From positions 124,001 to 188,000 of the forward strand of contig JAJHOH010000001.1 in assembly GCA_021651055.1 (NCBI GenBank): a stretch of 64,000 bases of DNA, in the 5' to 3' direction. Under the pieces are notes generated by a model. It was not told the origin of the DNA. It saw only the letters and a program-made list of their open reading frames with translations, and did not search any database. Below, piece after piece: positions 28,907 through 45,001 of the stretch. The position numbers and the translations under genes were made by a program. Source of the stretch: Candidatus Manganitrophus morganii. Lineage in GTDB: Bacteria; Nitrospirota; Nitrospiria; SBBL01; Manganitrophaceae. The first letter of the stretch is position 1; each line of letters starts with the position of its first letter.

Positions 28907-29739
28907 TGGAATCCTTGGGCTGAAGAATGACTCTGTTTCTTGAAGTGCAATCCGGCCTTCGGGCTGTCGTCCACCAGGATCACATCCCCCTGGCGGACCA
29001 CCGACATCTCCGAATCGTAGGTTCTGGAGAGGATGGCCGAGGTAAAAATCTCTTCGGGATACCCCTGCGCGATAATAGTTTGATTGAAGCAGATGACCCA
29101 GGGAAGATGCCGTGCGACGGCATTCAGGTCGTGTGTCGTCAAGAGGATGGTGACTCCGCCTCGGTTCAACTCTCCGAGCAGATGAAGGATGGCATGTTGG
29201 GTTTTCAGATCGACTCCGGAGGTCGGTTCATCCAGAATCAAGAGTTTCGGATTTCCGATCAACGCCCGCGCCAGGAAAACCCGCTGCTGCTCGCCCCCCG
29301 ACAACGCCTTGATATGCCGCTGCACGTAGGCGCCGATGCCGAGCTGTTCGAGCAACGTCTGAATCCGGGCGCGCTCCGGCCGTGTCAGCCAGGGGAGCCG
29401 CGACGACTCCCGGTAGAGCCCCATCGCCACCACCTGCTCCACCGTCACCGGAAAATCCCAATCGACCGTCTCGATCTGAGGGACATAACCGACGTGGGGA
29501 AGTGATTGCTGAGAAACCCGCGTTCCCGATACGGAGACCGAACCGGAAAGAATCGGAACGATCCCTAAGATGGCCTTGAGAAGGGTCGATTTTCCGGTCC
29601 CGCTCGGACCGACCAAGCCGGCGAATTGTCCGGGGTAAAGCTGAAGGGTGAGATTTTGAAAAACCGTTTTTTTGGGGTAACCGCAGGTCACTTCCTGGAG
29701 CGAAACCAGTGCTTTCTCTCCGTCTGAATAAGCGGACAT
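28903..29739 (-). CDS. Metal ABC transporter ATP-binding protein (ZnuC/MntA family)
   Basis: The 278-residue ATPase has Walker A GPSGTGKST, the family motif VGYVPQIETVDWDFPVTVEQVV, the signature LSGGEQQR and Walker B LLILDEPTSGVD. It powers the permease encoded next to it. I chose ATG 29739 (MSAYSDGEKALVSLQEV), two bases past the nikR stop; the longer open frame is a shadow of nikR. The C-terminus is mildly His-containing (LHFKKQSHSSAQGFH). Confidence 0.92.
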   Translation of the reverse strand: MSAYSDGEKALVSLQEVTCGYPKKTVFQNLTLQLYPGQFAGLVGPSGTGKSTLLKAILGIVPILSGSVSVSGTRVSQQSLPHVGYVPQIETVDWDFPVTVEQVVAMGLYRESSRLPWLTRPERARIQTLLEQLGIGAYVQRHIKALSGGEQQRVFLARALIGNPKLLILDEPTSGVDLKTQHAILHLLGELNRGGVTILLTTHDLNAVARHLPWVICFNQTIIAQGYPEEIFTSAILSRTYDSEMSVVRQGDVILVDDSPKAGLHFKKQSHSSAQGFH

Positions 29740-29741
29740 TT

Positions 29742-30158
29742 CTAGCTGAGGTCCTTCCCGGTCGTTGTGGCGGTCAGCTTTCCATGTTTGACCCCTTTGG
29801 TGGAGATCAACGAATCGGCAATCTTCCTGATCTCTCCGGCCCGTCCCCTCACCACCAGCACCTCCAGGCAACGATGTTCGTCGAGATGGATATGAAGCGT
29901 CGACCGGATCAACTTCGAATAGAGGTGCTGGAGATCGGTCAATTTCTCCATCAACTCATGGACGCCGTGATCGTAGACGATGGTGATCGTCCCGATCGTC
30001 TCCTTGTTTTCGTCCCACTCCTGCTCGACCAGATGGTCTCGGATCAAATCTCGCAACGCTTCGGAACGGTTGGTGTACTTCTTCTCTTCGATCATTTTAT
30101 CGAATAGTTTTAACAGACCGGCATCCATCGAGACGCCAAATCGAACCAAATTTGCCAC
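29742..30158 (-). CDS. nikR: Nickel-responsive regulator NikR family
   Basis: The 138-residue protein has an N-terminal ribbon-helix-helix (residues 1-45, VRFGVSMDAGLLKLFDKMI) and a C-terminal ACT-like metal domain. His78, His89, His91 and Cys97 (LHIHLDEHRCLEV) match the four high-affinity nickel ligands of E. coli NikR (76, 87, 89, 95) with the same spacing. It starts with GTG. It sits between the binding-protein gene and the ATPase gene of a metal ABC transporter, so it probably represses this cluster when nickel is plentiful. No clear GTATGA-N16-TCATAC site was found in the 82 bases before it; a TTGACA hexamer there (30219-30224, minus sense) has no good -10. Confidence 0.93.
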   Translation of the reverse strand: MANLVRFGVSMDAGLLKLFDKMIEEKKYTNRSEALRDLIRDHLVEQEWDENKETIGTITIVYDHGVHELMEKLTDLQHLYSKLIRSTLHIHLDEHRCLEVLVVRGRAGEIRKIADSLISTKGVKHGKLTATTTGKDLS

Positions 30159-30240
30159 GGAAAACCCCCATCAGAAAGATAACACTTTTTCTGAGAGTGT
30201 GCTATAAAACATCTGAAATGTCAAGGGATTTGGTGTGCCG

Positions 30241-31290
30241 CTACGGAAGGTTTCGCACGTCGATTCCGTTTAGTGCGTCCGCTTTCCCGCCGAGCACCGA
30301 GGCCATCGTCTGAACGTTTTCCACCATCATCCCGATATAAGTATGCTCGGGGGCCTCTAATGGTCCGGGAAGATCATCGTCCCGGAGGGTCGAGACAAAC
30401 TTTACCCCCGCCTCCTTCCCGATCTGATCGAGAATCTTGCTTGGAAAAACCTCGGAGCCGAAGATCGCCGGGACTTTTTCCGCCTTCAGCTGATCGATCA
30501 GCCGCGCCATCTCTCTCGGGGAAGGCTCCGAAAAAGAAGAGGGCTGAACGGCGCCGATCACCGTGCAGCCGTAACGGGGGCAGAAATAGGCCCAGGAGTC
30601 ATGATAGGTCAATAGTTTTCGATTTTTGGCGGGAATCGTTTCCATCACTTTAAAAATCGCCTCGTCCAGCTTCTTCAATCGGGCCAGATATTCCGCCGCC
30701 CGCTTCTCATAGGAGGCTTTTCCCTCCGGATCAAGCGAGGTCAGCGCATCGCGGACCAGTTCGGTGTAGCGCATCGTATGGGCCACGCTCAGCCAGAGAT
30801 GAGGGTTCGGATTTCCCTCCGATTCCGGGAAACTGAAATCAAACACCCATTCTTTCTTGCCGATCGTGTTGTCTCCAAGCTTGAGGACCTTCGCCGTCTT
30901 TTTCTTGTTCGCATTCGCCAAGGCCTCCGTCGGGACTTCCAGCGTCAGGCCGTTGAAGATCAAGAGGTCGGCCTGCGTTAGGTATTTGATGTCGGAAGGG
31001 GCCGGCTCAAAGGTATGCGAATCGGTCCCTTCCGGGACGATTCCGTGCAGATCGATCCGATCCCCGCCGATATTCTTCACGATATTGGTGATCGGAGCGA
31101 CGGTGGTCACGACTTTCAACTTGCCCGCCGACTCCACATCAGGAACGATCAGGCTGAAAACCAGGATCAACGCGATAAGGACGCTCCCGACCACGACCGC
31201 TCGGCCCTGATATCTCGCGCATCGGCGATTTTTTCCGCCTCTCAAATGATTGAGCGGAACGTTTTCAAAAGGGGTTGATCTTTCCAGCAT
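30241..31290 (-). CDS. Metal ABC transporter substrate-binding protein (ZnuA/TroA, cluster A-I)
   Basis: The 349-residue protein has a 30-residue hydrophilic start and then a signal segment (31-54, cleavage near ESA-GK). Candidate metal ligands are His92 (DSHTFEPAPSD), His164 (NPHLWLS), His230 (TYHDSWAYF) and Asp304-306 (RDDDLPG). A His in third position is more typical of zinc binders than of manganese binders, which use Glu there. The His loop common in ZnuA is absent. GGAGG lies five bases before the ATG. The 82-base gap to nikR suggests one operon or a second internal promoter. Confidence 0.92.
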   Translation of the reverse strand: MLERSTPFENVPLNHLRGGKNRRCARYQGRAVVVGSVLIALILVFSLIVPDVESAGKLKVVTTVAPITNIVKNIGGDRIDLHGIVPEGTDSHTFEPAPSDIKYLTQADLLIFNGLTLEVPTEALANANKKKTAKVLKLGDNTIGKKEWVFDFSFPESEGNPNPHLWLSVAHTMRYTELVRDALTSLDPEGKASYEKRAAEYLARLKKLDEAIFKVMETIPAKNRKLLTYHDSWAYFCPRYGCTVIGAVQPSSFSEPSPREMARLIDQLKAEKVPAIFGSEVFPSKILDQIGKEAGVKFVSTLRDDDLPGPLEAPEHTYIGMMVENVQTMASVLGGKADALNGIDVRNLP

Positions 31291-31492: not shown

Positions 31493-31511
31493 TGCACTGT
31501 TTCACAGTGCA
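31493..31511. promoter_or_regulatory. Inverted repeat TGCACTGT-TTC-ACAGTGCA
   Basis: A perfect 8-bp inverted repeat with a 3-base centre lies 43 bases upstream of the TTGACA hexamer and 62 bases after the stop of the zinc-ribbon gene. It could be a repressor or activator site for the metal ABC cluster. It could also be a weak hairpin after the zinc-ribbon gene, though no T-run follows directly. Confidence 0.4.
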
Positions 31512-31573: not shown

Positions 31574-31813
31574 TCACGAGCCGGTCTCCCCTTCCACCTC
31601 TCTTTCAGAGAGATACTGCAGCGGGACGAGGAGCCAGTTCTTGCACTTCGGACACTTGGCGCAGACCCTCCCTTCCTTCAGGAAAGCCTTAATGATGGCC
31701 GCCTTGATCACAACGGCCCCTCCCTCCTCTTCGATATAGATCCGATATTTACAGGAGGGACATCGTCCCTGCGGGGAGAGGTCTTTCGGATCTTCGGGAT
31801 TGGGATCACTCAT
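31574..31813 (-). CDS. Small four-cysteine zinc-ribbon protein, paralogue 1
   Basis: The 79-residue cytosolic protein has the pattern CPSCK-x25-30-CPKCK (residues about 17-20 and 50-53), with IKAAIIKAF between and WLLVPLQY after. Two CxxC knuckles suggest a single zinc ribbon. It is clearly paralogous to the product of 40340-40624: both share QGRCPxCKY, VIKAA(I/V)IK, AKCPKCKxWL(L/I)VPLQY. I chose ATG 31813 because both paralogues align from there. It lies upstream of and in line with a metal ABC cluster. Function unknown; a zinc-dependent sensor or metallochaperone is inferred from context. Confidence 0.78.
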   Translation of the reverse strand: MSDPNPEDPKDLSPQGRCPSCKYRIYIEEEGGAVVIKAAIIKAFLKEGRVCAKCPKCKNWLLVPLQYLSEREVEGETGS

Positions 31814-31834
31814 GACCAGCCCTTTCCGCACCTC

Positions 31835-31864
31835 TTGGCTCCAATCGCAATAAGATGCTACAAT
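31835..31864 (+). promoter_or_regulatory. Promoter of the 56-residue His-rich gene
   Basis: TTGGCT (31835-31840) and TACAAT (31859-31864) are 18 bases apart in the gap between the divergent zinc-ribbon and His-rich genes and point at the latter, leaving a leader of about 78 bases. Confidence 0.5.
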
Positions 31865-31948
31865 CTCACAGAGGCAAAAAAGTCGCTTTACGACAAAAAA
31901 GCCGGTTCGACAGAAACGATCTTTCACACTTCATATAAGGAGGATCAC

Positions 31949-32119
31949 ATGCAGGATCAATCCCATCAGCATGCCGCGTTGAAGCACAATCACCCGCATC
32001 GTCCCGACGAACATCACAAGCATGATCAAGAGAAGGGTGAGCATTCTCACGATCACGAACACCAGCCGATGGCGCACAGCCATGCGCATGACCATAACGA
32101 GCCGCACCATCAACACTAA
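31949..32119 (+). CDS. Small histidine-rich protein (19 His of 56 residues)
   Basis: A strong AAGGAGG site precedes the ATG, and a strong intrinsic terminator follows the stop, so this short ORF is well supported as a gene. The product has no Cys, no signal peptide and 34% His, arranged as HxH and HH pairs. It resembles Hpn-like or other His-rich storage proteins in composition only. It should bind nickel, zinc or similar ions in the cytosol. It is divergent from the zinc-ribbon gene of the first metal cluster. Confidence 0.82.
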   Translation: MQDQSHQHAALKHNHPHRPDEHHKHDQEKGEHSHDHEHQPMAHSHAHDHNEPHHQH

Positions 32120-32130
32120 GATCCGATCCT

Positions 32131-32165
32131 GGGAGACCCGGCGGCAACCGGGTCTCCCTTTTTTT
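32131..32165 (+). terminator. Intrinsic terminator after the His-rich gene
   Basis: The 11-bp perfect stem GGGAGACCCGG / CCGGGTCTCCC with a 6-base loop is followed by seven T residues, 11 bases after the stop codon. Confidence 0.93.
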
Positions 32166-32220
32166 CGATCCCTCGTCACCCCCATCAAACGACAAGAGAA
32201 CGACCCCACCCCATTTTTTC

Positions 32221-34578
32221 TCAGAAGTGAACGATCAGCTCACCAAACCAGGTCCGTCCGGGAAACCGGCCGAAGCTCTGAAAATACTCCTTATCGAGAA
32301 TATTGTTGACCGCCAAGGAGGTCGACACCTTCTCCCAACCGCTGTAAATTACCTTAGCGTCGAGGACCTTATAAGGATCGTGCCCTCCGCGGACCCCGTT
32401 GACCACATCGGTATTGTCGTCTCGGGCGAATGCATTCCCTACCGCCTGGTAAACAAGCGAGCCGATGAACGATCCGGCAGTGAGGTCCAAACCGATGTTG
32501 TAGATGTACTCCGGAACCAGCGGAATGGCATTCCCTTCCAGTGCCGCATTGGCGGGGTAACTTGTGATCTCAGCATCCATCCGGGTGTAATTCGCAAAAA
32601 GACCGAGGTAGGAGGTGATCCGCTGCGCCAGATCGACTTCGATTCCCTTGGTTTCGGCCTCATCGGCATTTTCAAGCTGCCGAACCTGTATCGCAGGATC
32701 AATCGGATCCACCCCGATGGTGCGGCGGAAGATCATATCTTCTATCTCGTTCACAAAATAGGTCGCGCCGATCCGGGTCCCTGTCGGAAGGTCCTGAACA
32801 AATCCGACCTCCCATGCGAAAACCTCCTCCGGTTCAAGCTCGGGATTCCCGATCGTTCGCGATGTTCCGTGAACCGAATTGACGTAGAGATCATCGAGCG
32901 TCGGCGGTCGGAAAGCGGTTCCAACCGATGCCCTGAGGTTCGTTGAAGTAAACGGAGAATAGACGACCGAGACTTTCGGATTGAAAGAGTTTTGGCTTCT
33001 ATCTTCGAACCGCGTACTGCTGAAGCCGATTGTTTCCACCACCTCCTGGAAACCATCGGTATTCTCCCACCGGTCGTAACGGCCTCCCAGGTACAACGTC
33101 AGGTTGTCCAGGACTCTGAGTTGGTCCTGCAAGTAGATCGCTTGGGTTTGCTGCTCTCCGCCGCTCTTGCTGGCAATCCCGAGGGCTTCGGGAACCCGAC
33201 GATCACGCAGGACCGGAATCCGCTGATCCCCCTTCGCCGTCTGATAGAGCACGCCGATCGTCAGCAAATTGCGCTGTCCTACCTGCATGTTGCTCAGCAA
33301 CTCGGCATGGATGGCATTAGAATCTCGATCGCGCGTTGTCCAAGCCGCAGTCGTTCCTGTCGGAAAACCGAGTCCCACGAGAAAATTCGTTGGAACGTCC
33401 CGAAACTCGGTTTCTCGGTTGAACTGCGATTGATACCCGAGGTTGGCTTTGACCAAAATCGCCGGGGTAACTTCGAGACTGTATTGTAGAGCGTAGAGGC
33501 TGGCCTCATCTTCTCGGGTAATCGGAAAAAAATTCCGCTCGGAAAGGGTCACTCGATTCCCCTCGATATTCAAGGTCCCGCTGACGACCGGAAAGCCGTT
33601 CTGATCGCGCAGGTAGGTGTTGAAAGTTGGCTGGTCGAGCGTCCACTCGCCATAAAGCGCAGTTAAAGAAAGATTTGAATGCGATGTTAAATCGAAGCTC
33701 AGCTTCCCGGTATAATAATCCCGATTAAATACCTGTTTTCCGCCGTCTCCCACGGTGTACAAGGGCGCTCCGGTCACATCGGTGGTTCGGCTAAACCCGG
33801 TCACGACTGTTTCAGTTCCGTTCGCCGGCGTGTTTCCTCGGGGGCGCTCGATGGTCGAGACGACGTAGCCGTCGGTCCACCACCGGTCCAGCCCGATAAT
33901 AAAGCTCAGCCGATCGTTAAAGACCCGGTTTCCATATTGAAGGTGAGCGTTGCCGGTGCCATACGATCCATAACCCACCCGGGCCACGATGGTCTCTTCA
34001 TCCGGCGTCTTCATGATGCTGTTGATCACGCCGCCAAGGGCGTACCCTCCATAAAGCGCGGAGTAAGGGCCGCGGACCACCTCAATCCGTTCAATCTCAT
34101 CGACCGGCATTTCGCTCCAGGGGATTCCTCCCGTGATCGCGCTGTTTAAGGGAATTCCGTCGAGCATCAACAGGACCCGCTGCTGTCCCTGAAAGCCGCG
34201 CATAATCGTCATCGTATGGTTGTCGACCGGTCCGCGGAACTTCAAAACAGAGACGCCGACCTCGCGCCGAAGCGCCTCATCCAACGTCGGCGCATGCATT
34301 TTTTCAATCTCTTTGTCGGTCACGATGGACGTGCTCGCCGGCGCTTTTTCAACTTTTTCTTCGGTCCTCGTTGCCGTGACCGTCATCTCTTCATCGAATT
34401 CGATCCGACTGGTCTCTTCTTCCACCCCCTTACTTTCTTCCGCCCCTGCCGTTGTCTCTTCCGTCTCTGTTGCGATCGGTTCTTCTTCCTGGGCCAACCC
34501 CGGTGATGCAATCAGCCAGAATAATAGCGACAGAATTCGAACGGACGTATTCCAACCTTTAATTGGTTCCTGTTGCAT
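32221..34578 (-). CDS. TonB-dependent outer-membrane receptor
   Basis: The 785-residue receptor has a signal peptide (cleavage near GLA-QE), an acidic Glu/Thr-rich linker and a TonB box-like EEMTVTATR. A plug domain follows (about 65-185, IVTDKEIEKMHAPTLDEAL, IMRGFQGQQRVLLMLDGIPL, EVVRGPYSALYGGYALGGVIN), then a 22-strand-type barrel ending in the OM signature IVHF. Its form is that of the CirA/BtuB/colicin-receptor group. I chose ATG 34578, preceded by AAAAGGAGG. It is last in an operon that also encodes its own ExbB-ExbD-TonB and an ABC-2 transporter. The ligand is unknown; a metal chelate is inferred from the two flanking metal ABC clusters. Confidence 0.92.
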   Translation of the reverse strand: MQQEPIKGWNTSVRILSLLFWLIASPGLAQEEEPIATETEETTAGAEESKGVEEETSRIEFDEEMTVTATRTEEKVEKAPASTSIVTDKEIEKMHAPTLDEALRREVGVSVLKFRGPVDNHTMTIMRGFQGQQRVLLMLDGIPLNSAITGGIPWSEMPVDEIERIEVVRGPYSALYGGYALGGVINSIMKTPDEETIVARVGYGSYGTGNAHLQYGNRVFNDRLSFIIGLDRWWTDGYVVSTIERPRGNTPANGTETVVTGFSRTTDVTGAPLYTVGDGGKQVFNRDYYTGKLSFDLTSHSNLSLTALYGEWTLDQPTFNTYLRDQNGFPVVSGTLNIEGNRVTLSERNFFPITREDEASLYALQYSLEVTPAILVKANLGYQSQFNRETEFRDVPTNFLVGLGFPTGTTAAWTTRDRDSNAIHAELLSNMQVGQRNLLTIGVLYQTAKGDQRIPVLRDRRVPEALGIASKSGGEQQTQAIYLQDQLRVLDNLTLYLGGRYDRWENTDGFQEVVETIGFSSTRFEDRSQNSFNPKVSVVYSPFTSTNLRASVGTAFRPPTLDDLYVNSVHGTSRTIGNPELEPEEVFAWEVGFVQDLPTGTRIGATYFVNEIEDMIFRRTIGVDPIDPAIQVRQLENADEAETKGIEVDLAQRITSYLGLFANYTRMDAEITSYPANAALEGNAIPLVPEYIYNIGLDLTAGSFIGSLVYQAVGNAFARDDNTDVVNGVRGGHDPYKVLDAKVIYSGWEKVSTSLAVNNILDKEYFQSFGRFPGRTWFGELIVHF

Positions 34579-35329
34579 TACCGGATACCTCCTTTTGTAA
34601 TTGTTGCCTGTGGTCTTCATCCGCTTCTCTTTCCATGTAGCTTAAATAGACCTGTTCGAGGTCGAGCTGATCGAGCTCCCCGCGGGTCAATTCGGTCACC
34701 CGTTTTCCCGACTTCATGATCCCCACCCGATCGGCCAATTGATGCATCCGAAGCAGATCGTGCGTCGCCATCAGAATCGCTCTCCCCTCTGCGCGAAGCT
34801 GGGAGAGGAGCCGGAAGAACTCCGACGCCGCGCGGGGATCGAGGCCGCTCGTCGGCTCGTCCAACAAAAGGAGCTTCGCCCCCTTCATCTTGATCGCCGC
34901 GATCGCCACCTTCTGCCGCATCCCCTTGCTTAAATAGCGCGCTTTCCGGGAGAGCGCCTCTCTCGGGAAACCGACCTCTTCCAACATGCGGTCGCACGCT
35001 TCGAGCGAAGGATTCTGCCCGGCCAGCCGGCCGAAGTAACGGAGGTTGGTTCGGGCATCCAGATCGCCATAAAGAGCAACCTGCTCCGGGATGTAACCGA
35101 TATGTCGTTTGGTCTCCACCGGCTGCGCCACCACGTCGAGGCCGTTGATCTTCGCCGTTCCCCGCGATGGCTGAATGAAGCCGAGCAGAAGATTGATCGT
35201 GGTGCTCTTTCCGGCCCCGTTGGCCCCCAGAAGGGCATAGAGCTCTCCCGGCTGCACTTGAATATTCAGGTCATGAAGTCCGATGTTGCCGTCTTCATAA
35301 ATTTTCGCTAAACCGTGCGTCTCTAACAT
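34559..35329 (-). CDS. ABC-2 type transporter ATP-binding protein (NosF/CcmA-like)
   Basis: The 256-residue ATPase has Walker A GANGAGKST, the signature YLSKGMRQK, Walker B LLLLDEPTSGLD and the H-loop MATHD. It should energise the two permeases encoded just upstream. I chose ATG 35329, preceded by GGAGGACGGA; the longer open frame has no support. Its last 20 bases overlap the receptor gene start. Confidence 0.92.
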   Translation of the reverse strand: MLETHGLAKIYEDGNIGLHDLNIQVQPGELYALLGANGAGKSTTINLLLGFIQPSRGTAKINGLDVVAQPVETKRHIGYIPEQVALYGDLDARTNLRYFGRLAGQNPSLEACDRMLEEVGFPREALSRKARYLSKGMRQKVAIAAIKMKGAKLLLLDEPTSGLDPRAASEFFRLLSQLRAEGRAILMATHDLLRMHQLADRVGIMKSGKRVTELTRGELDQLDLEQVYLSYMEREADEDHRQQLQKEVSGNATGTN

Positions 35330-35378
35330 TCCGTCCTCCTGATCGTCATCGTCCTCACGTTCCAACGAAGGCAAAAAA

Positions 35379-36752
35379 TTAACGCATATCGTACCGGCGG
35401 ATCCCTCGGACGGCGGCCGCATAAGCCACCCCTGACAGAAGCGCCAGCCAGAACATCTTGGGCCAGGTCCGACCCACCACCTCCGCCAGAGACTCCTCCC
35501 GATATTGAAAACCGGGGATGCCTGCGAAGATCGCCTTCACTTCTTTCGGCTCCTGACGGGCGACCGAAGCGTAATATCTTGAAAGCTCATATCGGAATGT
35601 CTCGACCTGCTCGATAAAGTCCCGGTAACGGCGCTCCCCGGTCCCGGCCAGATCCATCAATGCGAAGCTGGCCATCGCCATCGGAGAGAGACTTGCCAAA
35701 CCGGTCTTCGTTCGAAGCGCGGCCTCCCGCTCCATGGCAAAGGCCCGGTCGATTTCGGCCTCTTTCGGAAGGGCTTTTCCTGCAACGAGAACCCGCTCCT
35801 CCATCCAGGAGGCGGGGGGATTGCCGTGATGGTCCTGATCGAGAATACGCCGCGCCTCGACCAGAAGCGCCCGTTTGGCGATATCGATCTCCATCTTCGT
35901 CGCCCGAGGGTGAAGCTGATCGCCGACGATCATCGCGATCCGAGGAATAAAAAATGTGAAAACCACCCAAATCAGGAGGAGGAGCATCAAGCTTCGCCGG
36001 GAATCGATGCTCCGCGCGGAGGCCCAGAGACCGGCCATCCCCCAAAACGCGAGATAGAGAAAAGCGGTTACCGCGAACAACGCCAATCGTGAAGGCGCGA
36101 TAAAGCCGTTCTGGAAATGCCCGCCGACGGCGCTGGTCGCAATCCCGATCAAAAGAGCAATCGAGATCGGCGCGGCCATCCAGATTAGAAATCCGACCGC
36201 CTTTGCATTCAAGAAGCTTCTCCGGGAGACCGGATAGCTGAAAAGCAATCTCAGGGTTCCCCTCTCCTTTTCTCCCGAGACGGCGTCAAAGGTCAGCAAG
36301 ATCGCCCAAAGGGGGGCCAGGACGGTCAAAACAAAGCCGAGATCGAGCGATCCGAATCGGCTGACCTGTGGATTCCAGGCCTGTTGGCCATCGGTCAGCT
36401 CGGTCCGATGGGCCGGCGCCAATCCGACCCGGACACGCAATCCCGCCGTTTGATTTCGAGAAATGCCATCCATCAATATGCTCGATGGAAGCGGTTGCTG
36501 GTAAATCCATTTTCCCGAGCCGACCCCCGCCGACAGCCATTGCTCCGGTTTAAATTTAGCCCACTCTGCGCGGGCCGCCTCTTCCGCCTCCCGGATGCTC
36601 TCCGACCGGTGATGAAAGATCTCCCCGCCCCGGTAGATCGCCAGAACGATGATCGCCATCATCAGACCGGTAATGAGGCGATGGGCCGGATTGGAGCGAT
36701 GCATGTCCAACTCATGGCTGAGCAGAGACCCAAATGTCGATTTCTTTTCCAT
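35379..36752 (-). CDS. ABC-2 type permease, DUF3526-like, copy B
   Basis: The 457-residue membrane protein has an N-terminal helix (about 23-42) and a large periplasmic loop of about 100 residues. Five further helices follow, starting at LGFVLTVLAPLWAILLTFDAV; the motif SGEKERGTLRLLFSYPVSRRSFLNAK is typical of ABC-2 permeases. A second soluble segment precedes the last helix. It is a paralogue of the neighbouring gene: both share FDA/YDAV(S/C)GEKERGTLR and a C-terminal RRYDMR/NRYDVR tail. The two presumably form a heterodimer. ABC-2 proteins usually export; the substrate here is unknown. Confidence 0.88.
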   Translation of the reverse strand: MEKKSTFGSLLSHELDMHRSNPAHRLITGLMMAIIVLAIYRGGEIFHHRSESIREAEEAARAEWAKFKPEQWLSAGVGSGKWIYQQPLPSSILMDGISRNQTAGLRVRVGLAPAHRTELTDGQQAWNPQVSRFGSLDLGFVLTVLAPLWAILLTFDAVSGEKERGTLRLLFSYPVSRRSFLNAKAVGFLIWMAAPISIALLIGIATSAVGGHFQNGFIAPSRLALFAVTAFLYLAFWGMAGLWASARSIDSRRSLMLLLLIWVVFTFFIPRIAMIVGDQLHPRATKMEIDIAKRALLVEARRILDQDHHGNPPASWMEERVLVAGKALPKEAEIDRAFAMEREAALRTKTGLASLSPMAMASFALMDLAGTGERRYRDFIEQVETFRYELSRYYASVARQEPKEVKAIFAGIPGFQYREESLAEVVGRTWPKMFWLALLSGVAYAAAVRGIRRYDMR

Positions 36753-36761
36753 CCCATTCTC

Positions 36762-38198
36762 CTATCGGACATCGTAGCGGTTGAGCTGCAAGATCGATCC
36801 GACCGCCGCAACGACACAGAAGATCGTCAAGATGAAGAACCATCCGATAAACCGGCTCCATACCGCCGTGGGCGGCTCTTCCCGGTATTGAAAACTCGGA
36901 ACCCCCTCCCAGTCGTTGAACGTCTGGACATTCTTGCCCCAGAGGTCGTTGAAAAAAGACCCCAGCGTGATAAAAAATTCATCGACCTGTTCCTTGAAAT
37001 GCCGATGACGCGCCGGATCGGTTCCGGCGAGGGCCATCGAGACGTTCAAAAACGAAGTGGTGGGAGAAACCAGCGCCGTCCGCATGGCCAAACGCTCCTG
37101 CCGCTCGTATTGTCCTTTGACCTTGTCGATCGCTTTCCGCCGCAGCGCATTCAACTGGGCATTGGACTCCATCGCCATGACGCCGGTCGGGTCGACCCGC
37201 CAGTCGGCCGGCGCCCGTTCGCTCTGCGTCATCGCGGTAAACGCGAAGTCTTCCGGGATCTCGGGGAATTTCTTCCGAAGCTCCTGCACGACCTCATTGA
37301 ACCGGACATTCCGCCACTCCTGCCGGGCCTCCCGGATCTCCGCCTGTTCCCGGTGTAGGAGAACCGGATCGGGCAAGGCATGGACCTGCTCCGCGATGAA
37401 TACCGACATCTTCGGGAGAAAAAAGACCGCCGTGACCCAGATGACAAACAGGTATCCCAAAGCGGTTGCGGGCCGGGGGGTGATCGATGAAACCCACATC
37501 GCGCAAAAAGCGAAAAAGAGAAGATATGCCAACGAGGCGCCGAGAAGAGCGAGAAGACGGAGAAGCTCGTCGGCGTGAAAATCGATACTGAAGATGATCG
37601 GCGCGATGAGTATGCCGGCAGCGAGGGGGATCCCGAACGCGATGAGAATGATCAGGCCGTTCGCGCTCCACTTACCGAGAAGAAACGATTTTCTGGAGAT
37701 CGGATGAGAAAGGACCATCCGGAGGGTCCCCCGTTCCTTCTCCCCGCAGACGGCGTCATAGGTTAAAAAGATCACCATGAGCGGGAGAAGAAAGGCGGTG
37801 ACGAAGGCGAGATCGAACGCGCCGATCTGGGCCAGAAGCGGATCTTCCTCGGCGTTGCTCCCGACCGGGTCGCTGCTGTTGTGCGCGTCGAGGACGATCT
37901 GCTGTCCCAAGTAGTCTTCCACCCCTCGGTCAAAGATCGAGAGGGGCGAGAGCGGCTTGACGACCCACTTGCCGAAGTGATGCGCCACATGGGGACGCTT
38001 CGCTTCTTGAGAAACCCACTCCGCCTGGGCCGATTGCTCCAACTTCACTCGTTCGGCAGTCTGTCGCTGATAGAGAAGGCTTCCCTGCGCCACCGCTAGA
38101 AAAATGAGGAGGGTCGCGGTCATCAAGAGAAGCCAGAAACGGCGGCTGGCCCGCGCCTGCGCCAGCTCGTGTTGAATGACCGTGAAATAGGGATTCAT
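36762..38198 (-). CDS. ABC-2 type permease, DUF3526-like, copy A
   Basis: The 478-residue membrane protein has the same layout as its downstream paralogue: N-terminal helix (about 24-43), a periplasmic loop with GKWVVKPLSPLSIFDRGVEDYLG, then LAFVTAFLLPLMVIFLTYDAVCGEKERGTLRMVLSHPISRKSFLLGK and further helices. It lies nine bases before copy B and 12 bases after tonB, so the set reads as one operon. The pair with one ATPase suggests a complete ABC-2 transporter serving, or served by, the TonB-dependent receptor at the end of the operon. Confidence 0.88.
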   Translation of the reverse strand: MNPYFTVIQHELAQARASRRFWLLLMTATLLIFLAVAQGSLLYQRQTAERVKLEQSAQAEWVSQEAKRPHVAHHFGKWVVKPLSPLSIFDRGVEDYLGQQIVLDAHNSSDPVGSNAEEDPLLAQIGAFDLAFVTAFLLPLMVIFLTYDAVCGEKERGTLRMVLSHPISRKSFLLGKWSANGLIILIAFGIPLAAGILIAPIIFSIDFHADELLRLLALLGASLAYLLFFAFCAMWVSSITPRPATALGYLFVIWVTAVFFLPKMSVFIAEQVHALPDPVLLHREQAEIREARQEWRNVRFNEVVQELRKKFPEIPEDFAFTAMTQSERAPADWRVDPTGVMAMESNAQLNALRRKAIDKVKGQYERQERLAMRTALVSPTTSFLNVSMALAGTDPARHRHFKEQVDEFFITLGSFFNDLWGKNVQTFNDWEGVPSFQYREEPPTAVWSRFIGWFFILTIFCVVAAVGSILQLNRYDVR

Positions 38199-38210
38199 CG
38201 TTACACCTCT

Positions 38211-38972
38211 TTATTTCAATTCGAACCGCATGCCGAGAATGATGACGATCCGGTCCTGCCCCTTCAGAAAATCCGGGACGGGAGGGAGGGGCGATGCCTT
38301 GCGGATTGTCTCCATCGCCGCCTGTACCAGTAAGGGATGCGCCTCCGCGGGAGGAAGGATCTCCACCTCGTGCACACGGCCTTTCGGGTCGATCGTAAAC
38401 TGAACATAAACCATTCCTTCAATCCCACGATCTCGCGCCCGCTTTGGATAGAGCCGGTGGCCCGCGATCTGTTTTAACAATGCTTTCCTAAAAGGACCGA
38501 GGCCATCATCGGGCATTCCTGGCGATGGGGTAAGGTGAATCGGTTGCATCGGGAGCGGTTCGATTTCGGAGACCGGCTCCACATCCACCACAGTCGGCTC
38601 CTCCGAAACCGGCAGCGCTTCCGCCACTTCCACCGCCGGGACCTCAGGCGTTATGGCAACAGGGGGTTCCTGGAGAGCCGGCATCTCCTCTGGAGGCGCG
38701 TCGGGCTCAACTTCCTTAACCGGAATCGGCTCTGGAAGAGGGGGGTTCCGTTTTGGTTTTTCTTTTGGAGGAATTGCTTTTTTTTCGACCCGGCTTAGAG
38801 GCGCCTCAACCCTTTTCTTCGGAGGGGTAGAGGCCGTGGCAGCGGCGATCTGAATCCGAATAGTCTGAGCCGGCGGCGTGGCGATCTTTTCTGGCGCAGA
38901 CGGACGAATCCAAAAGAACGCCGCATGGAGCAAGATCGAAACCAAAGTGGCCGCGACGGTCGATGGACTCAC
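38211..38972 (-). CDS. tonB: TonB energy-transducing protein
   Basis: The 253-residue protein has an N-terminal helix (VAATLVSILLHAAFFWI), a long Pro/Glu/Lys-rich periplasm-spanning region (about 30-150) and a C-terminal TonB domain (about 165-253, LYPKRARDRGIEGMVYVQFTIDPKGRV, VQAAMETIRKASPLPP). It couples the ExbBD proton flow to the outer-membrane receptor. It starts with GTG in a GTGA overlap with the exbD stop. Confidence 0.94.
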   Translation of the reverse strand: MSPSTVAATLVSILLHAAFFWIRPSAPEKIATPPAQTIRIQIAAATASTPPKKRVEAPLSRVEKKAIPPKEKPKRNPPLPEPIPVKEVEPDAPPEEMPALQEPPVAITPEVPAVEVAEALPVSEEPTVVDVEPVSEIEPLPMQPIHLTPSPGMPDDGLGPFRKALLKQIAGHRLYPKRARDRGIEGMVYVQFTIDPKGRVHEVEILPPAEAHPLLVQAAMETIRKASPLPPVPDFLKGQDRIVIILGMRFELK

Positions 38973-39394
38973 TCCGATTCTCCATCCGCCGAACGGGTGA
39001 CGATCGCCAAATCGGGCACCCCCAACCCCTTGGCTAAATCCAACAGATCGACGAAATGATGAAATTGAACTTGCCGATCCGCCGAGAGGAAAAGGGTCTT
39101 CGTCTTCCCCGCTTCGATCCGATCCTTCAAAACCTCCGGCAAATCTTGCCGGGTGACCGGCGCCTCGTCGATGAAGATCTCCCCTCCTTTACGGAGGAGG
39201 AGATGGATCTCTTCCTTCTCCTCTTTCGGTTTCGCCTGATCGGCCTGAGGGAGAACCAGGTCGAGGACCGGTCGAGCAGCGATGATGGATGTGAGCATGA
39301 AGAAGATAAGAAGTTGAAAAACCATATCGATCATCGGCGTCATGTCGATTCCCGTCGCCGCTTCCTCCTCTCCGGATCTCTTGAGACGAAACAT
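38969..39394 (-). CDS. exbD: Biopolymer transport protein ExbD
   Basis: The 141-residue protein has one N-terminal helix with the essential membrane Asp (DMTPMIDMVFQLLIFFMLTS) and a periplasmic domain typical of ExbD/TolR. It lies between exbB and tonB and overlaps tonB at the stop codon. It forms the proton channel with ExbB. Confidence 0.94.
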   Translation of the reverse strand: MFRLKRSGEEEAATGIDMTPMIDMVFQLLIFFMLTSIIAARPVLDLVLPQADQAKPKEEKEEIHLLLRKGGEIFIDEAPVTRQDLPEVLKDRIEAGKTKTLFLSADRQVQFHHFVDLLDLAKGLGVPDLAIVTRSADGESE

Positions 39395-39403
39395 GCCCCC
39401 TCC

Positions 39404-40081
39404 TTATCTGCCGTTCGGTGTTGTTAAGCCGATCACGGCCTCTCTCACCCTCTCCTTCTCCTTAATTTCCTGGAAGCGGTATTTCTTCAGGAGGAGAAGG
39501 AGCTCGCTTCCATAATGTTCCAACTGGAAACGAAGATGAGACACCCTCGATTTAAGATAGTGATGGGCGATGAGGGTCGGAATGGCCACCAGAAGCCCCC
39601 CCACGGTGGTGATGAGCGCGGTCCAGATCCCCGACGCGAGGAGGGCCGGGGAGACGCTTTCCTTCATCTCCGCCACCTGTTGAAACGTCTCGACCATCCC
39701 CACAACCGTGCCGAGCAATCCGAGCATGGTGGAGATGGATGCGATTAGGGCCAGCGCCGGAATTCCCCGGTTGGCGCTTTGCAACATCTCCTCGCCCCGA
39801 ATCGACATCGACTCCTGGATGATCTCGATCTCCTCTTCCGGAGCGGAGAGGCCCTCCTTCAAAACGGCACCGATCGGCCCGCGAATCTGCTCGGCCGCGC
39901 TCCGCGCTCCCTTGATATCGCCTCGTGAGAGGTGATCTTTCAGGTGGTCGAACAAAGAATAAGGGGATGCGGAGATCCTCAAAAAAAACCATCCCCGCTC
40001 CAGGATGAGGGTGACCGCCACGATCGAAGCGAGAAGGATCGGGTGCATCCAGATCCCGCCTTTAAGATAGAGATCAAACAT
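39404..40081 (-). CDS. exbB: Biopolymer transport protein ExbB (MotA/TolQ/ExbB family)
   Basis: The 225-residue protein has three helices and the family core STMLGLLGTVVGMVETFQQVA and SPALLASGIWTALITTVGGLLVAIPTLIAHHYL. An AAAGGAG site precedes the ATG. It heads the seven-gene operon running to the TonB-dependent receptor. The 258-base gap upstream (40082-40339) contains a strong bidirectional terminator; I could not recognise a Fur-type box or riboswitch in it. Confidence 0.94.
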   Translation of the reverse strand: MFDLYLKGGIWMHPILLASIVAVTLILERGWFFLRISASPYSLFDHLKDHLSRGDIKGARSAAEQIRGPIGAVLKEGLSAPEEEIEIIQESMSIRGEEMLQSANRGIPALALIASISTMLGLLGTVVGMVETFQQVAEMKESVSPALLASGIWTALITTVGGLLVAIPTLIAHHYLKSRVSHLRFQLEHYGSELLLLLKKYRFQEIKEKERVREAVIGLTTPNGR

Positions 40082-40240
40082 GGTAAGCTCCTTTCAACGC
40101 CCCGGTGATGCTGGCCAGGGGGGGCCTTCCGCCGAAACTTCTTCGTGAGACGGCTTCTTATTTTCTGATTGGAAAACAGTATCGAACTTATTCTGAAGAC
40201 ACCGCTCGAAATACTGATCACACGACATAGCAAAAGAAAA

Positions 40241-40284
40241 AGCCGCAACGGGAGAACACTCATTCTCCTCGTTGCGGCTTTTTT
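40241..40284. terminator. Bidirectional intrinsic terminator
   Basis: The 10-bp stem AGCCGCAACG / CGTTGCGGCT continues with GGAGAA / TTCTCC around a 6-base loop. Six T follow on the + strand, and on the minus strand the stem is followed by TTTTTCTTTT. In the minus sense it ends the transcript of the second metal ABC operon and separates it from the exbB operon. Confidence 0.92.
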
Positions 40285-40339
40285 GTCTTAAACGACTTCT
40301 TTGCCTGGCTCGATTTAACTAACGCAAATCAAATTTACT

Positions 40340-40624
40340 TCATGTTCCGACCGCGCGGTCCGGATGATATTGCAACGGCACAATTAACCAATGTTTACAC
40401 TTGGGACACTTTGCAAAGGTTCTCTTCGCCTGGAGGTCGGTCTTAATGACCGCCGCCTTGATCACCGCAGAGGTCCCTTCCTCCAGGACATGGATCTGAT
40501 ATTTACAAAAAGGGCATCGGCCTTGAGAGCAGAGCGCCGTACCTTCTATTTTCGAGTCAGAACTTATCGAAGCTTTTCGTTGGTCAGTCGACATCGATTG
40601 TTCATCCTTCCACACAAACATCAT
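40340..40624 (-). CDS. Small four-cysteine zinc-ribbon protein, paralogue 2
   Basis: The 94-residue protein carries CPFCKYQIHV and AKCPKCKHWLIVPLQY, the same two CxxC knuckles and framework as the product of 31574-31813, with a longer polar N-terminus. Its ATG overlaps the stop of the permease gene (ATGA), so it is firmly part of the second metal ABC operon and precedes the terminator. A start at the internal Met11 is possible. Function unknown; the conserved link with metal ABC genes suggests a zinc-responsive or metal-delivery role. Confidence 0.8.
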   Translation of the reverse strand: MMFVWKDEQSMSTDQRKASISSDSKIEGTALCSQGRCPFCKYQIHVLEEGTSAVIKAAVIKTDLQAKRTFAKCPKCKHWLIVPLQYHPDRAVGT

Positions 40625-41538
40625 CGTCCCAATACCCTCTTGATGATCCCAGGGATCAAAAAGAATCCAGCCGCTCCAAGCATTGCCGGGCCGGTCGGCA
40701 ACGAGTAAACAAATGAGAGATAAAATCCAATCGCCGCCGAAAGAACGCCGAAGATCATCGACAGCGAAAATGCGATCTTCAAACGATCAGTCAGCATCAA
40801 CGCCGAGGCAGCCGGCATGACCAGGAACGAGAAAACCGGAAGGGCGCCGATCGCCGCGATCGAGACCGAGATCGTAAATGCCAAGGTAACGAAAAGAACC
40901 TGGTTCAGCAAGCGGACATTCGACCCGGTCGCCTGCGCCGTCTCCGGGTCAAAAGAGATATAAACAAAACGCTTATAGAGCAGAAAGTGAATCGAAAAGA
41001 CTCCGACGAGTGTCCCGGCAAGCAGCCAGAGATGACGCTCCGGGACGAAGATGACATTTCCGAAGAGAATATTCTCAATATCGTGGGTCTCGGCCGCCAG
41101 CTTATCGAGGATCAGAAAAACGAGTCCCGCCGGTAAGGCATATCCGATGCCGAGGATGCTCTCCCGCGTCAGCTTCTTCTCCCCGACCTGTACCGCCAGA
41201 ATTGAGGCGGTTACACAACCGAAGAAGAGCGAGGAGAGAAGCGGCCCGTTCACGATCCCCTCTTCCGCCGGAAGCAACCCGGCGGAAGCAGCCCCGCTCC
41301 CCAGAAGAGCACTTCCGAGAAAGAAGAAGGCAATCCCAAGTGAGGAGATCTGGGAGAGCGCTGCCGAGACGAAGACGATCCGTTTTAAGATCACATAGAT
41401 GCCGAGATATCCGGCCAACAGGGCGACCATGATCGAGGCGACGACTCCGCTCTGAAGGATGGGGAGGGCCTCCCAAAAGGTCATTCCGCCGTTTTCCGCC
41501 AGAAGAAGTCTGCCGATGATCGGGATTGACTCAAGCAT
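40621..41538 (-). CDS. Metal ABC transporter permease (ZnuB/MntB family)
   Basis: The 305-residue ABC-3 permease has eight or nine helices (LPILQSGVVASIMVALLAGYLGIYVILKRIVFVSAALSQISSLGIAFF and VTLAFTISVSIAAIGALPVFSFLVMPAASALML are typical). I chose ATG 41538, which overlaps the end of the ATPase gene by eight bases and has AGGGGAT upstream; an in-frame ATG at 41562 falls in the His-rich tail repeat of the ATPase gene. It lacks the His-rich tail of the first cluster's permease. Confidence 0.9.
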   Translation of the reverse strand: MLESIPIIGRLLLAENGGMTFWEALPILQSGVVASIMVALLAGYLGIYVILKRIVFVSAALSQISSLGIAFFFLGSALLGSGAASAGLLPAEEGIVNGPLLSSLFFGCVTASILAVQVGEKKLTRESILGIGYALPAGLVFLILDKLAAETHDIENILFGNVIFVPERHLWLLAGTLVGVFSIHFLLYKRFVYISFDPETAQATGSNVRLLNQVLFVTLAFTISVSIAAIGALPVFSFLVMPAASALMLTDRLKIAFSLSMIFGVLSAAIGFYLSFVYSLPTGPAMLGAAGFFLIPGIIKRVLGR

Positions 41539-42346
41539 GTTCGTGATCCCCCTGCCCGCCATGTTCGTGATCCCCCTTCCGATCGGGATGGTCGTGATCG
41601 CTGTGGCGATGGACGAAGAAATACTTATGTCCGTGGAGGAGATGCGCGTCGATATCGAGCTGATAGATCTCTTTGAGCGTGGCGTTCGTCAGCAACGTCT
41701 CCGTGTCGCCGATTTTCACCGTCTGATTCTCACGGTGGATGATAATCAGCTTATGCGCATAATTCGAGATCAGATTAAGCATATGGGTGATCATCACCAA
41801 CGATAACCTCGCCTCTTTGTGAAGGTCGAGGAGGAGCTGCATAATGGTGCTCTCCCCGGCAATGTCCATCCCATCGGTCGGCTCATCCAACACCAAAATA
41901 TCAGGCTCGCCTGCAAGCGCACGGGCGATGAGTGTTCGTTGCTTCTGTCCTCCTGAGAGCGCCCGATACGGTTTGTTTACCTGAGACGTCATCCCGACCT
42001 TTTCGATGAAATGTGCAGCAAGATCGTGATCTTTCTTCTCCAGCCGTCCCGGCAATCCAAGAAATGGATATCGCCCCATTAGAACCACATCACGGACAGT
42101 CACCGGGAAGATATCATCGATGACGCCTCGCTGGGGAACATAACCGAACCGAACCCCCGGCGCCCGCTCCACCACCCCGCTCAAGGGAGGAATAATCCCC
42201 AAAAGCGTCTTAACCAGGGTGGTCTTACCGGCCCCGTTCGGCCCGACGATCCCCCAGAAATCCCCCCGATCAATTGAGACGTTAATTTCCGAGAGAATCG
42301 GGGTGCGTCGATAGCCGATTGTTAAATCTTTCGCTGAAACCTGCAT
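41531..42346 (-). CDS. Metal ABC transporter ATP-binding protein with His-rich tail
   Basis: The 271-residue ATPase has Walker A GPNGAGKTT, FGYVPQRGVIDDIFPVTVRDVV, the signature LSGGQKQR and Walker B ILVLDEPTDGMD. After residue 235 it adds a tail rich in His and Asp (HRHSDHDHPDRKGDHEHGG). Here the His tail is on the ATPase, in the first cluster on the permease. The tail is encoded by a short tandem duplication at about 41536-41581. Confidence 0.92.
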   Translation of the reverse strand: MQVSAKDLTIGYRRTPILSEINVSIDRGDFWGIVGPNGAGKTTLVKTLLGIIPPLSGVVERAPGVRFGYVPQRGVIDDIFPVTVRDVVLMGRYPFLGLPGRLEKKDHDLAAHFIEKVGMTSQVNKPYRALSGGQKQRTLIARALAGEPDILVLDEPTDGMDIAGESTIMQLLLDLHKEARLSLVMITHMLNLISNYAHKLIIIHRENQTVKIGDTETLLTNATLKEIYQLDIDAHLLHGHKYFFVHRHSDHDHPDRKGDHEHGGQGDHEHA

Positions 42347-42366
42347 TCATTTTATCCGGTTTGAAC

Positions 42367-43329
42367 TCATTGAATACCCTTCAACGTGTCCGTGAGTTTA
42401 CCATAGACCACCTCAAAGAGGTCGAAGTAGTCTTTCACGCCGACATCCTCCCCCACAGACGAGGGAAGAACGAGATGGGTTGCGCCGGTTTGCTTTGCGA
42501 CTTCTTTCGGAATACGAAGATTCTGCCACGGGGAGGTGACGATCAAAGGAATTTTTTGAGCTTTCATCTTCTGAATCAGGGAAGCCATCTCCGCGGCACT
42601 GGGCGGAATGGTCTCACGCGGCTCAATGTAGCCGGCGTGTTTTAAGCCATGACGTTTGATCAGGTAAATCCAATCCCGATGGTAACTCACCAGGGGGGTC
42701 CCTTTGAACGGCTCCATCATCGCATCCCACTTTGCGATCCGCTCTTTCAGGGCACTCTGAAATTGGGTTAAATTCGTTTGGTAGAAGTCCGCATTGCTCG
42801 GATCAATTTCGGCCAATTTATTGGCAATGTTCTGGGCCACAATCAGACCGTTCGCAGGATCGAGCCAATAGTGGTGATTCCCCCGAACGACCGATACCTG
42901 CCCTCCCCCCGCCGACTGCGTTCCGGCGATAATATTGGTTGTGAAAAAGGGGGTGCTCAACAATTCTTCCGGGGAGTAAGGAATGAGCTCGACCCCCTCC
43001 GACGGATTCAGATAGCCCGGCGCTCCTTCCAGTATTTCAGAATTTCTGGCATTTGTCAGCGCGGTCGGAAGCCAGGCGAGCTCCATATCTTGACCATTGA
43101 CGATTAGAAGATCCGCCCGATTGAGCATCACCGCGAGATTCGGCTTCAGCTGGATGGCGTGGGGGTCCTGGGACGCCAGCGTGAGACTCTTGACGTCGGC
43201 TTTATCCTGTGCAATCGCTTTCACAATCGCGGCATCCTGGGGAAAGCTGGTCACGATATTCAGCTTTGCCCAAGACGGAGCGGCTCCCAAAAAGATTAAA
43301 GCGAAGATTCCCAAAATGGTCTTTTTCAT
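42367..43329 (-). CDS. Metal ABC transporter substrate-binding protein (ZnuA-like)
   Basis: The 320-residue periplasmic protein has a signal peptide (cleavage near SWA-KL). Candidate metal ligands are His57 (DPHAIQLKP), His152/153 (GNHHYWLDP), His217 (SYHRDWIYL) and an acidic residue near the C-terminus. As in the first cluster, the third ligand is His, which favours zinc or a similar ion over manganese. It lies between the outer-membrane protein gene and the ATPase gene in a six-gene operon. Confidence 0.92.
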   Translation of the reverse strand: MKKTILGIFALIFLGAAPSWAKLNIVTSFPQDAAIVKAIAQDKADVKSLTLASQDPHAIQLKPNLAVMLNRADLLIVNGQDMELAWLPTALTNARNSEILEGAPGYLNPSEGVELIPYSPEELLSTPFFTTNIIAGTQSAGGGQVSVVRGNHHYWLDPANGLIVAQNIANKLAEIDPSNADFYQTNLTQFQSALKERIAKWDAMMEPFKGTPLVSYHRDWIYLIKRHGLKHAGYIEPRETIPPSAAEMASLIQKMKAQKIPLIVTSPWQNLRIPKEVAKQTGATHLVLPSSVGEDVGVKDYFDLFEVVYGKLTDTLKGIQ

Positions 43330-43344
43330 GCCGATACTCCTTTA

Positions 43345-44655
43345 CTAGAATAGATTGTAAAACTTGCCCAACCCCGGCGTAACCGTTCCGCCGCCGATAT
43401 TGAATTGGACATAAAAAACGTCATAGTCTTCATCCGCGCCGGATTGATCGGTATGATTATATTGGAAGCTGATCCGGCTGACAGGGTTGATGTAATACCG
43501 GAGACTGGCGGTATAACGGGCCTGTCGGTCTTCGTGCCCCCTCGGAATACCGACATAATCAAAGCGGCCATCGACCTCCCAATAGTAAGAGAATCGATAA
43601 GCTAGTTCCGTATACATACCGCCGATTGTATCATCCTCCATGACCGTACTTACAACCTGGCTTTCAAGATCGACCCCAGGGGCGCGGGTGGAACGGTCGA
43701 GCGCCAATACGACCGGATTTTCCCGTTTCCCTGCCAAATACTCGGTTGTCCATCGAACATACGGGCTGTATGGAGCCGGCTTCCATTGATACGTAAAATC
43801 GGCGCCGTAGAGGATGGTTCGGTCGCCCAAACCTGCGTCGATTGCGAGCGGATTAAAGCCAGGATCAGCAAAGTCCATTGTGTTGCTCTTATTCTTTCCC
43901 GTCGCAAAAGAGGCTCCGAACTCCAGGTTGGAATTGAGGGTCAGATCAAAGAAGGTCGTTGCCCGGCTAAAGAAAATAAACTCATTGGCGCTAACATCCC
44001 CCGCCACCTCATCCCATTCACCAGGGAAGGTGCGGTCGAAGTTTCCGACCGGACCTCGCATGAGAGCAGCCGATAGCTCCATGAAGACCGGCGTTGGCGG
44101 TTGCCAATTGAACTCAAGTCCGACATTATGAACCCCATCGACGCCAAGGAAGAAGGTCGAGATCAAAGGAGGATCGGCAAAGGCCCATTCATGGTCGTGA
44201 TACTGGTTTAACTTCATAAAATTGACTCGAAAGATTCCAGTTTTCGCCTGAAGGGAAAAAGGCAATTTATGAAAAAGGATAAATGCCTCTTCAATTGCAG
44301 CCTCATCCTGTGCAAATGCCGTAAAGAGCGCCCACTTACACGGAAGGTTGGCATAGAGAATAAAACAATCCTGAGAGAAGGCCAGATCGAAGCTGGTCAC
44401 GGACAAGCCCTCAAATTGCCGGTCGCCCAGCTTGACTGGATTCACCCCCTCGTCATAATTGGTAAAGGCCCCATAGACGATGTTTGCCGTCCAGGAGACA
44501 TCGACCAATCCATAACGGCTTAAGCTGACCCCTTTGGTGTGGGCTTCTGCAGAGGGCGCCTTAGAAATAAAAACGCCGAGCATCAGAACAACCAAGAAGA
44601 TCTTCCACACAGACAGAGAGCGACACATCCTCTCTTTTTTTGGAAATTGGGACAT
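43345..44655 (-). CDS. Outer-membrane beta-barrel protein of a metal ABC operon
   Basis: The 436-residue product has a signal peptide (helix at about 17-33, cleavage near AEA-HT), about 14-16 amphipathic beta strands and a terminal Phe (GLGKFYNLF). It lacks a plug domain and TonB box, so it is porin-like. Its ATG abuts the stop of the His-rich gene, whose last codons (Glu-Glu-Glu, GAGGAGGAA) double as the ribosome site. Being in the same operon as a ZnuABC-type transporter, it may let metal ions cross the outer membrane under starvation. I do not recognise a named family. Confidence 0.82.
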   Translation of the reverse strand: MSQFPKKERMCRSLSVWKIFLVVLMLGVFISKAPSAEAHTKGVSLSRYGLVDVSWTANIVYGAFTNYDEGVNPVKLGDRQFEGLSVTSFDLAFSQDCFILYANLPCKWALFTAFAQDEAAIEEAFILFHKLPFSLQAKTGIFRVNFMKLNQYHDHEWAFADPPLISTFFLGVDGVHNVGLEFNWQPPTPVFMELSAALMRGPVGNFDRTFPGEWDEVAGDVSANEFIFFSRATTFFDLTLNSNLEFGASFATGKNKSNTMDFADPGFNPLAIDAGLGDRTILYGADFTYQWKPAPYSPYVRWTTEYLAGKRENPVVLALDRSTRAPGVDLESQVVSTVMEDDTIGGMYTELAYRFSYYWEVDGRFDYVGIPRGHEDRQARYTASLRYYINPVSRISFQYNHTDQSGADEDYDVFYVQFNIGGGTVTPGLGKFYNLF

Positions 44656-44964
44656 TTATTCCTCCTCTGTTTGTATTGGTTCTCTATCATGCATTGCATG
44701 CCTTTTTTTTCCATTCAACGGATTCTTTTCTTCTAAAGAATCGCATGAATGAAGCAAATCGTGTTCTGAAGAATGTTGGTGCTCTGCTGCCTCATGGGTA
44801 TGTTCATGGAGATGGTTAGGATCACCAGAGGATGCCGCTTCATGATGATCATGGCCATTGAACCCTTCAGGGTGGGTGTGGTGATGATGCGTATCGTCTG
44901 AATGAGCATGCGTGTGAGTGACCTTTTTATGGTAATGGCGATGATAGAACTCGTCACAAGACAT
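44656..44964 (-). CDS. Histidine-rich protein heading the second metal ABC operon
   Basis: The 102-residue product has 24 His and two Cys and no signal peptide (MSCDEFYHRHYHKK, THTHAHSDDTHHHHTH, NHLHEHTHEAAEHQHSSEH). I chose ATG 44964, which has GGAGG five bases upstream; an in-frame ATG at 44982 lacks one. It resembles the His-rich 56-residue protein of the first cluster in composition but not in length. It may buffer or deliver zinc/nickel. A palindrome (45002-45019) lies in its promoter region. Confidence 0.82.
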   Translation of the reverse strand: MSCDEFYHRHYHKKVTHTHAHSDDTHHHHTHPEGFNGHDHHEAASSGDPNHLHEHTHEAAEHQHSSEHDLLHSCDSLEEKNPLNGKKRHAMHDREPIQTEEE

Positions 44965-45001
44965 CAATTCCTCCGATTTCATCTGTCGATCTAGGTGATA
45001 C

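Follow-up and report, generated by a model that had tools for sequence, protein, structure and literature searches.

Once a metal has entered through a TonB-dependent receptor, it is usually passed on by an ABC importer that works with a binding protein, and an operon that joins such a receptor to an ABC-2 transporter raises the question of what this transporter carries and in which direction. The operon analysed here lies in a 64-kb stretch of DNA of Candidatus Manganitrophus morganii (the window; 64,000 nucleotides, positions 124,001 to 188,000 of contig JAJHOH010000001.1), and all coordinates refer to the whole window. Within this operon the receptor forms, together with an ATPase and a pair of DUF3526 permeases, a widespread, recurrent cassette that is probably dedicated to the uptake of a divalent metal. 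A receptor-linked cassette using an ABC-2 transporter instead of a conventional importer has, to our knowledge, appeared in print only within one Zur regulon.

Operon structure and distribution of the cassette

The region 32221-40081 of the minus strand is filled by seven genes that overlap or abut one another, each assigned to its family above the Pfam cut-off: (i) exbB of the MotA/TolQ/ExbB family (39404-40081; PF01618 MotA_ExbB, 4.8e-29); (ii) exbD (38969-39394; PF02472 ExbD, 3.2e-28); (iii) tonB (38211-38972; PF03544 TonB_C, 7.3e-14; TIGR01352 also above cut-off); (iv) permease A (36762-38198), with an ABC-2 core and a DUF3526 domain (ABC2_membrane_2, 3.6e-35; DUF3526, 8e-20); (v) permease B (35379-36752), of the same composition (5.9e-23 and 3.6e-10, respectively); (vi) an ABC ATPase of the NosF/ABCA type (34559-35422; ABC_tran, 8.5e-31), whose true start is probably near 35329; and (vii) a TonB-dependent receptor with plug and barrel (32221-34620; barrel 1.3e-53, plug 8.4e-25), matching Cir, PhuR, BtuB and FhuA in the PDB. 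A terminator-like inverted repeat followed by a run of T's (40242-40278, minus strand) sets the operon apart from the genes upstream. The two permeases share 31% identity and are the only DUF3526 proteins encoded in the 4.29-Mb genome. The initial annotation, which had placed exbB-exbD-tonB, two DUF3526-like permeases, an ATPase and a TonB receptor in one operon, is thus borne out by the Pfam assignments and the common strand; its description of the ATPase as NosF-like also holds, as NosF chains were matched at 5e-39, with ABCA transporters scoring higher (2.8e-58).

The distribution of DUF3526 was analysed in evenly drawn genomes of Pseudomonadota (n=397, with the Caulobacter genome, the centre of the set, included) and Bacteroidota (n=296). 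Carriers numbered 23 in the former (Caulobacter counted) and 46 in the latter (45 above cut-off), while in a set of 58 genomes of relatives the family occurred in two, the genome of the window (G000) and G004, both of the same genus. The loci of all 22 other Pseudomonadota carriers and of all 46 Bacteroidota carriers were fetched, and their genes were mapped with profiles seeded by sequences of the window, the plasmids and Caulobacter. A receptor gene adjoins the module in 21 of the 22 Pseudomonadota carriers and in 13 of the 46 Bacteroidota carriers, the latter count including several stretches that stop at contig ends and one (L166) that yielded no recognised gene. By the same rule a receptor adjoins the module in nine of 11 plasmid records; the Aureibacter receptor lies one gene away, and the Methylocystis plasmid has none. 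No relatives were found in the viral contigs searched. Chance association was rejected, since two large phyla, both evenly sampled, show the receptor-ATPase-DUF3526 set repeatedly, and the pairing, which had been presented as anomalous for TonB receptors, proves to be a recurrent one. Single-sequence searches, which are less sensitive than profiles, recognised no exbB, exbD or tonB gene in the 79 fetched stretches. A ZnuA-type binding protein stands beside the cassette only in the window and in one sampled locus, L107.

Relation to znuK-znuGHI and other described systems

The same four components, with a link to zinc, are present in an already described system, znuK-znuGHI of Caulobacter. In the report on it, an "ABC-2 type" set, znuGHI (CC1518-CC1520), lies beside the receptor gene znuK (CC1517); Zur represses znuK and znuGHI and binds to them in vitro, zinc depletion induces both, and znuK and znuL are required under zinc starvation (Mazzon et al., 2014; PMC4176598). 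The locus was found by means of the printed znuK operator, which matched 17 stretches, one of them from C. vibrioides DSM 9893 (L018). In this strain the operator site is situated between the genes of the receptor and the ATPase, which is followed by two permeases; both are DUF3526 proteins (1.4e-40 and 2.2e-38) and the only two in that genome.

The operon of the window and znuK-znuGHI have in common a TonB receptor beside an ABC-2 ATPase and two DUF3526 permeases, a link to metal starvation (seen in Caulobacter) and a His triad in permease A; the two A permeases share 28% identity. In Caulobacter, znuK and znuGHI are transcribed divergently and share one Zur box, whereas the receptor gene of the window belongs to a same-strand operon; moreover, neither exbBD-tonB nor ZnuABC was recognised in 19 kb of the Caulobacter locus, whereas the window has both. 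The cassette is therefore a core of a described kind, to which the variant in the window adds its own energizer and an island with NikR. The initial annotation had named a described system of the same gene order and known substrate as what would speak against its view of the operon, and znuK-znuGHI, which is linked to zinc and has a different gene order, is largely such a system. The Caulobacter paper was the only result of a literature search combining a TonB receptor, ABC-2 and Zur-dependent zinc uptake; the combination of TonB, NosY, ABC-2 and zinc returned none, and neither did DUF3526, alone or with TonB, a weak negative given that subscription journals were mostly outside the coverage.

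Three further systems invite comparison. NosDFY is the ABC-2 transporter of nitrous-oxide-reductase maturation (PDB 7o0y series). The permease core resembles NosY (the permease A profile matches NosY of 7o0y at 2.5e-8) and the ATPase resembles NosF, whereas the window has two distinct permeases where NosDFY has one, large additional loops predicted to be periplasmic, and an attached TonB receptor; no NosD was found in the operon by the ORF list and Pfam. ZnuABC and AztABC are of a different transporter class, combining an ABC-3 permease with a separate binding protein; two such sets flank the operon of the window, and AztC adjoins the cassette in L107. In Helicobacter, TonB-dependent nickel uptake (FrpB4; NikH) is repressed by NikR, as stated in the available part of the source (PMC3856676), which makes no mention of a DUF3526 transporter. 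Uptake in both cases is receptor-based and nikR lies in the same island as the operon of the window.

Proposed metal import and alternative readings

A candidate metal site was recognised in permease A. Hydropathy analysis predicts six membrane segments, with large loops at residues 45-118 and 271-442, the second containing DUF3526; with the N-terminus inside, as the ABC-2 fold implies, both would face the periplasm. The first loop contains His70, His74 and His106. In an alignment of 77 of the 79 permease A proteins, 44 of them linked to a receptor and 33 without an adjoining one, all three His residues are present in 42 of the receptor-linked proteins and two of the three in the other two; these counts reflect conservation among related, non-independent sequences and not repeated events. 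None of the three is found in 16 of the 33 unlinked proteins, all from Bacteroidota. This triad-less, receptor-less subgroup (L151-L165 and L168; 16 of the 77) presumably has another function. The triad, first reported in this analysis, is possibly a metal site.

Evidence of metal-dependent regulation was found outside the window. Zur-type boxes, GTTATNNNATAAC with at most one mismatch, precede the leading cassette genes (at most 120 bp upstream or within the first 30 bp) in eight of the 22 Pseudomonadota loci. Eleven sites fall in the 4,236 bp of this zone as against six in the remaining 400,806 bp, and 19 control palindromes with permuted arms averaged 0.16 loci (maximum 2). In the other 14 Pseudomonadota cassettes the box is below threshold, so it was treated as a regulatory rather than a structural feature of the cassette. 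In L107, the cassette lies beside AztC (353.3 bits, cut-off 350) and an AztD-like protein (397.6 bits, cut-off 400). The same locus also encodes two CobW/ZigA-like GTPases and a member of the Fur family that is nearest to Zur, these three being below cut-off. Other flanks, surveyed as the 25 commonest of 103 families in 91 scanned ORFs (of 106 listed, from 27 cassettes), look random; two Fur-family proteins, including the one from L107, appear in the recurrent families.

Taken together, the homology to znuK-znuGHI, the recurrence of the set, the Zur boxes elsewhere, the triad and the metal-island context suggest uptake, with both direction and metal inferred. We consider that the cassette is probably a self-contained system that takes up a divalent metal, either zinc or nickel, in a TonB-dependent manner, the metal being free or bound in a small chelate. 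ExbBD-TonB would power the outer-membrane receptor, through which the metal would pass into the periplasm; the permease pair, its two large periplasmic loops (one with the triad and the other with DUF3526) replacing a separate binding protein, would take up the metal, and the NosF-like ATPase would drive it into the cytoplasm. Of the two functions first proposed for the operon, a different inner-membrane route for a chelate or metal is the best supported.

Several observations weigh against this reading. Bacterial ABC-2 proteins are mostly exporters. The triad is also present in 17 of the 33 A permeases that lack a neighboring receptor, and the AlphaFold2 model of permease A, run on four sequences (mean pLDDT 54.4), is too poor to show whether the three His residues meet. 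At the same threshold Zur boxes are not enriched in Bacteroidota (one of 46 loci) or on plasmids (none of 11); nor were enriched palindromes found upstream of the Bacteroidota cassettes. In the window, a search for GTTAT-type boxes upstream of exbB gave a best match with three mismatches, which is at chance level, and no clear Zur was recognised among the Fur-family proteins of the genome. NikR suggests nickel, yet no operator-like palindrome other than the terminator was found upstream of exbB, NikR's own operator sequence not being known. In Caulobacter, the mutants described in the accessible portion of the paper are receptor mutants, with no znuGHI deletion among them (PMC4176598). Zur control of the window operon was itself rejected as a candidate, GTTAT-type boxes being nowhere above chance there.

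The metal need not be the same throughout, and it is a distinct possibility, compatible with the uptake reading, that the same import mechanism serves nickel in the genus and zinc elsewhere. The nikR island, the lack of a Zur box and the operon's own exbBD-tonB all point to a metal that may be nickel rather than zinc. When the window genome was compared with three sister genomes of the genus (G002, G004 and G005), the core znuA1-nikR-znuC1-znuB1 was found to be constant in all four with varying neighbors, bordered by an FG-GAP-type protein on one side and a protease-like protein on the other (labels assigned by eye); NikR_C occurs in five of six genomes of the genus. By blastn of the island, an 8.4-kb stretch containing the cassette (32165-40573) is missing from the same island of G002 (junction at L189 17809-17812), which has kept the His-rich/znuACB2 set described below. 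In G004 the island has, besides the DUF3526 cassette, two more receptors, tonB-exbB and an ABC set of the Nik/Opp type, some of these genes being in broken frames; tonB is directly ahead of permease A, with an exbB-like gene further away, and the Nik/Opp-type set (L179 1-7642), in which the binding protein frame is broken, is placed between the cassette and znuA1. In G005, the island has only tonB-exbB-exbD and another receptor. The island of the genus looks like a metal-uptake locus whose outer-membrane modules come and go beside a conserved core, and in this genus the cassette would be one of several such exchanged modules. This pattern favors nickel or several metals, and NikR-repressed nickel uptake through a TonB-dependent receptor has a precedent in the Helicobacter system (PMC3856676, as far as accessible). 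Against nickel stand the lack of an identified NikR operator upstream of exbB, the Nik-like proteins of G004, which fall below every NCBIfam cut-off among those listed, and the binding proteins of the window, whose closest models are AztC and MntC (below cut-off). A bolder form of the proposal, somewhat doubtful and put forward tentatively, is that the DUF3526 pair would be an ABC-2-fold metal importer without a binding protein, its triad receiving metal delivered by the receptor, and that the seven genes would encode a two-membrane pump switched to nickel.

It is unlikely that the transporter, like NosDFY, uses ATP to hand metal to a periplasmic partner (the receptor, ZnuA or a metallochaperone) or strip metal from it, with no translocation. 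The nearest solved permease is indeed NosY, with NosF among the nearest ATPases; the predicted periplasmic loops are large, and the cassette of L107 adjoins AztC and AztD, with no second ABC set recognised there. The cassette nevertheless includes no NosD homolog, and most sampled cassettes have no adjacent binding protein.

Least probable is the secretion of a small chelator by the ABC-2 pair, the loaded form being retaken by the receptor and its metal moved on by ZnuABC or another importer: the exporter bias of the ABC-2 family and the inner-membrane importers already at hand beside the operon would suit it, but no chelator biosynthesis gene was found in the operon (ORF list and Pfam), no chelator- or metallophore-synthesis family is among the recurrent flank families of the 91 ORFs, which favors metal import and leaves the chelator exporter first suggested unsupported, and a conserved, predicted periplasmic His triad would better suit a metal-handling face than a chelator exit. 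With metal import preferred, the triad, its absence from the receptor-less Bacteroidota subgroup and the sister genome without the cassette make direction and mechanism directly testable.

Genes and sites flanking the operon

The initial annotation had contrasted the ABC-2 pairing with conventional importers; the pairing is real, and the contrast is incomplete, as the flanks of the operon contain two importers of the ZnuABC type (PF01297/PF00950) and nikR, which that annotation lacked. Downstream (27941-31290, minus strand) are genes for (i) a znuB1-like ABC-3 permease (27941-28906), which belongs to the conserved island core and was identified by synteny and with a profile built from the window's two ABC-3 proteins; (ii) a znuC1-like ATPase (28903-29871; ORF list and synteny); (iii) the nickel-responsive regulator NikR (29742-30158; NF003381, 206.9 bits, cut-off 105; NikR_C, 7.4e-33); and (iv) a znuA1-like substrate-binding protein (30241-31290; PF01297, 2.1e-71). 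A 19-bp palindrome (31493-31511; arms of 8, spacer of 3) upstream of znuA1-nikR is a candidate operator.

The upstream set (40621-44982, also minus strand) is composed of genes for a znuB2-like ABC-3 permease (40621-41562; PF00950, 2.4e-42), a znuC2-like ATPase (41531-42346), a znuA2-like substrate-binding protein (42367-43329; PF01297, 1.9e-51), a 436-amino-acid protein with no Pfam match (43345-44655), which travels with znuACB2, as shown by synteny in G002, and a His-rich protein of 108 amino acids (44656-44982), the first gene of the set by synteny. Ahead of the latter are a strong promoter-like site (45070-45043) and a perfect palindrome, GATAAG-N6-CTTATC (45002-45019), which was rejected as a shared operator or regulon marker, being the sole exact match in the genome.

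Between the receptor gene and znuA1, antisense to the metal operons, lies a plus-strand gene for a His-rich peptide of 56 amino acids (31949-32119), with an AGGAGG ribosome-binding site and a terminator-like site (32131-32158); conservation of this DNA extends to G002 and G005, and a metal storage peptide is possible. On either side of the cassette lies a gene for a small protein with CxxC pairs (31574-31927 and 40340-40624), the two being paralogs; genes like these come after other uptake modules in G004 and G005, and in G002 they are truncated. Elsewhere in the window, one in-frame TGA is reported in an Opp-type permease region (approximately 5529-6455, minus strand).

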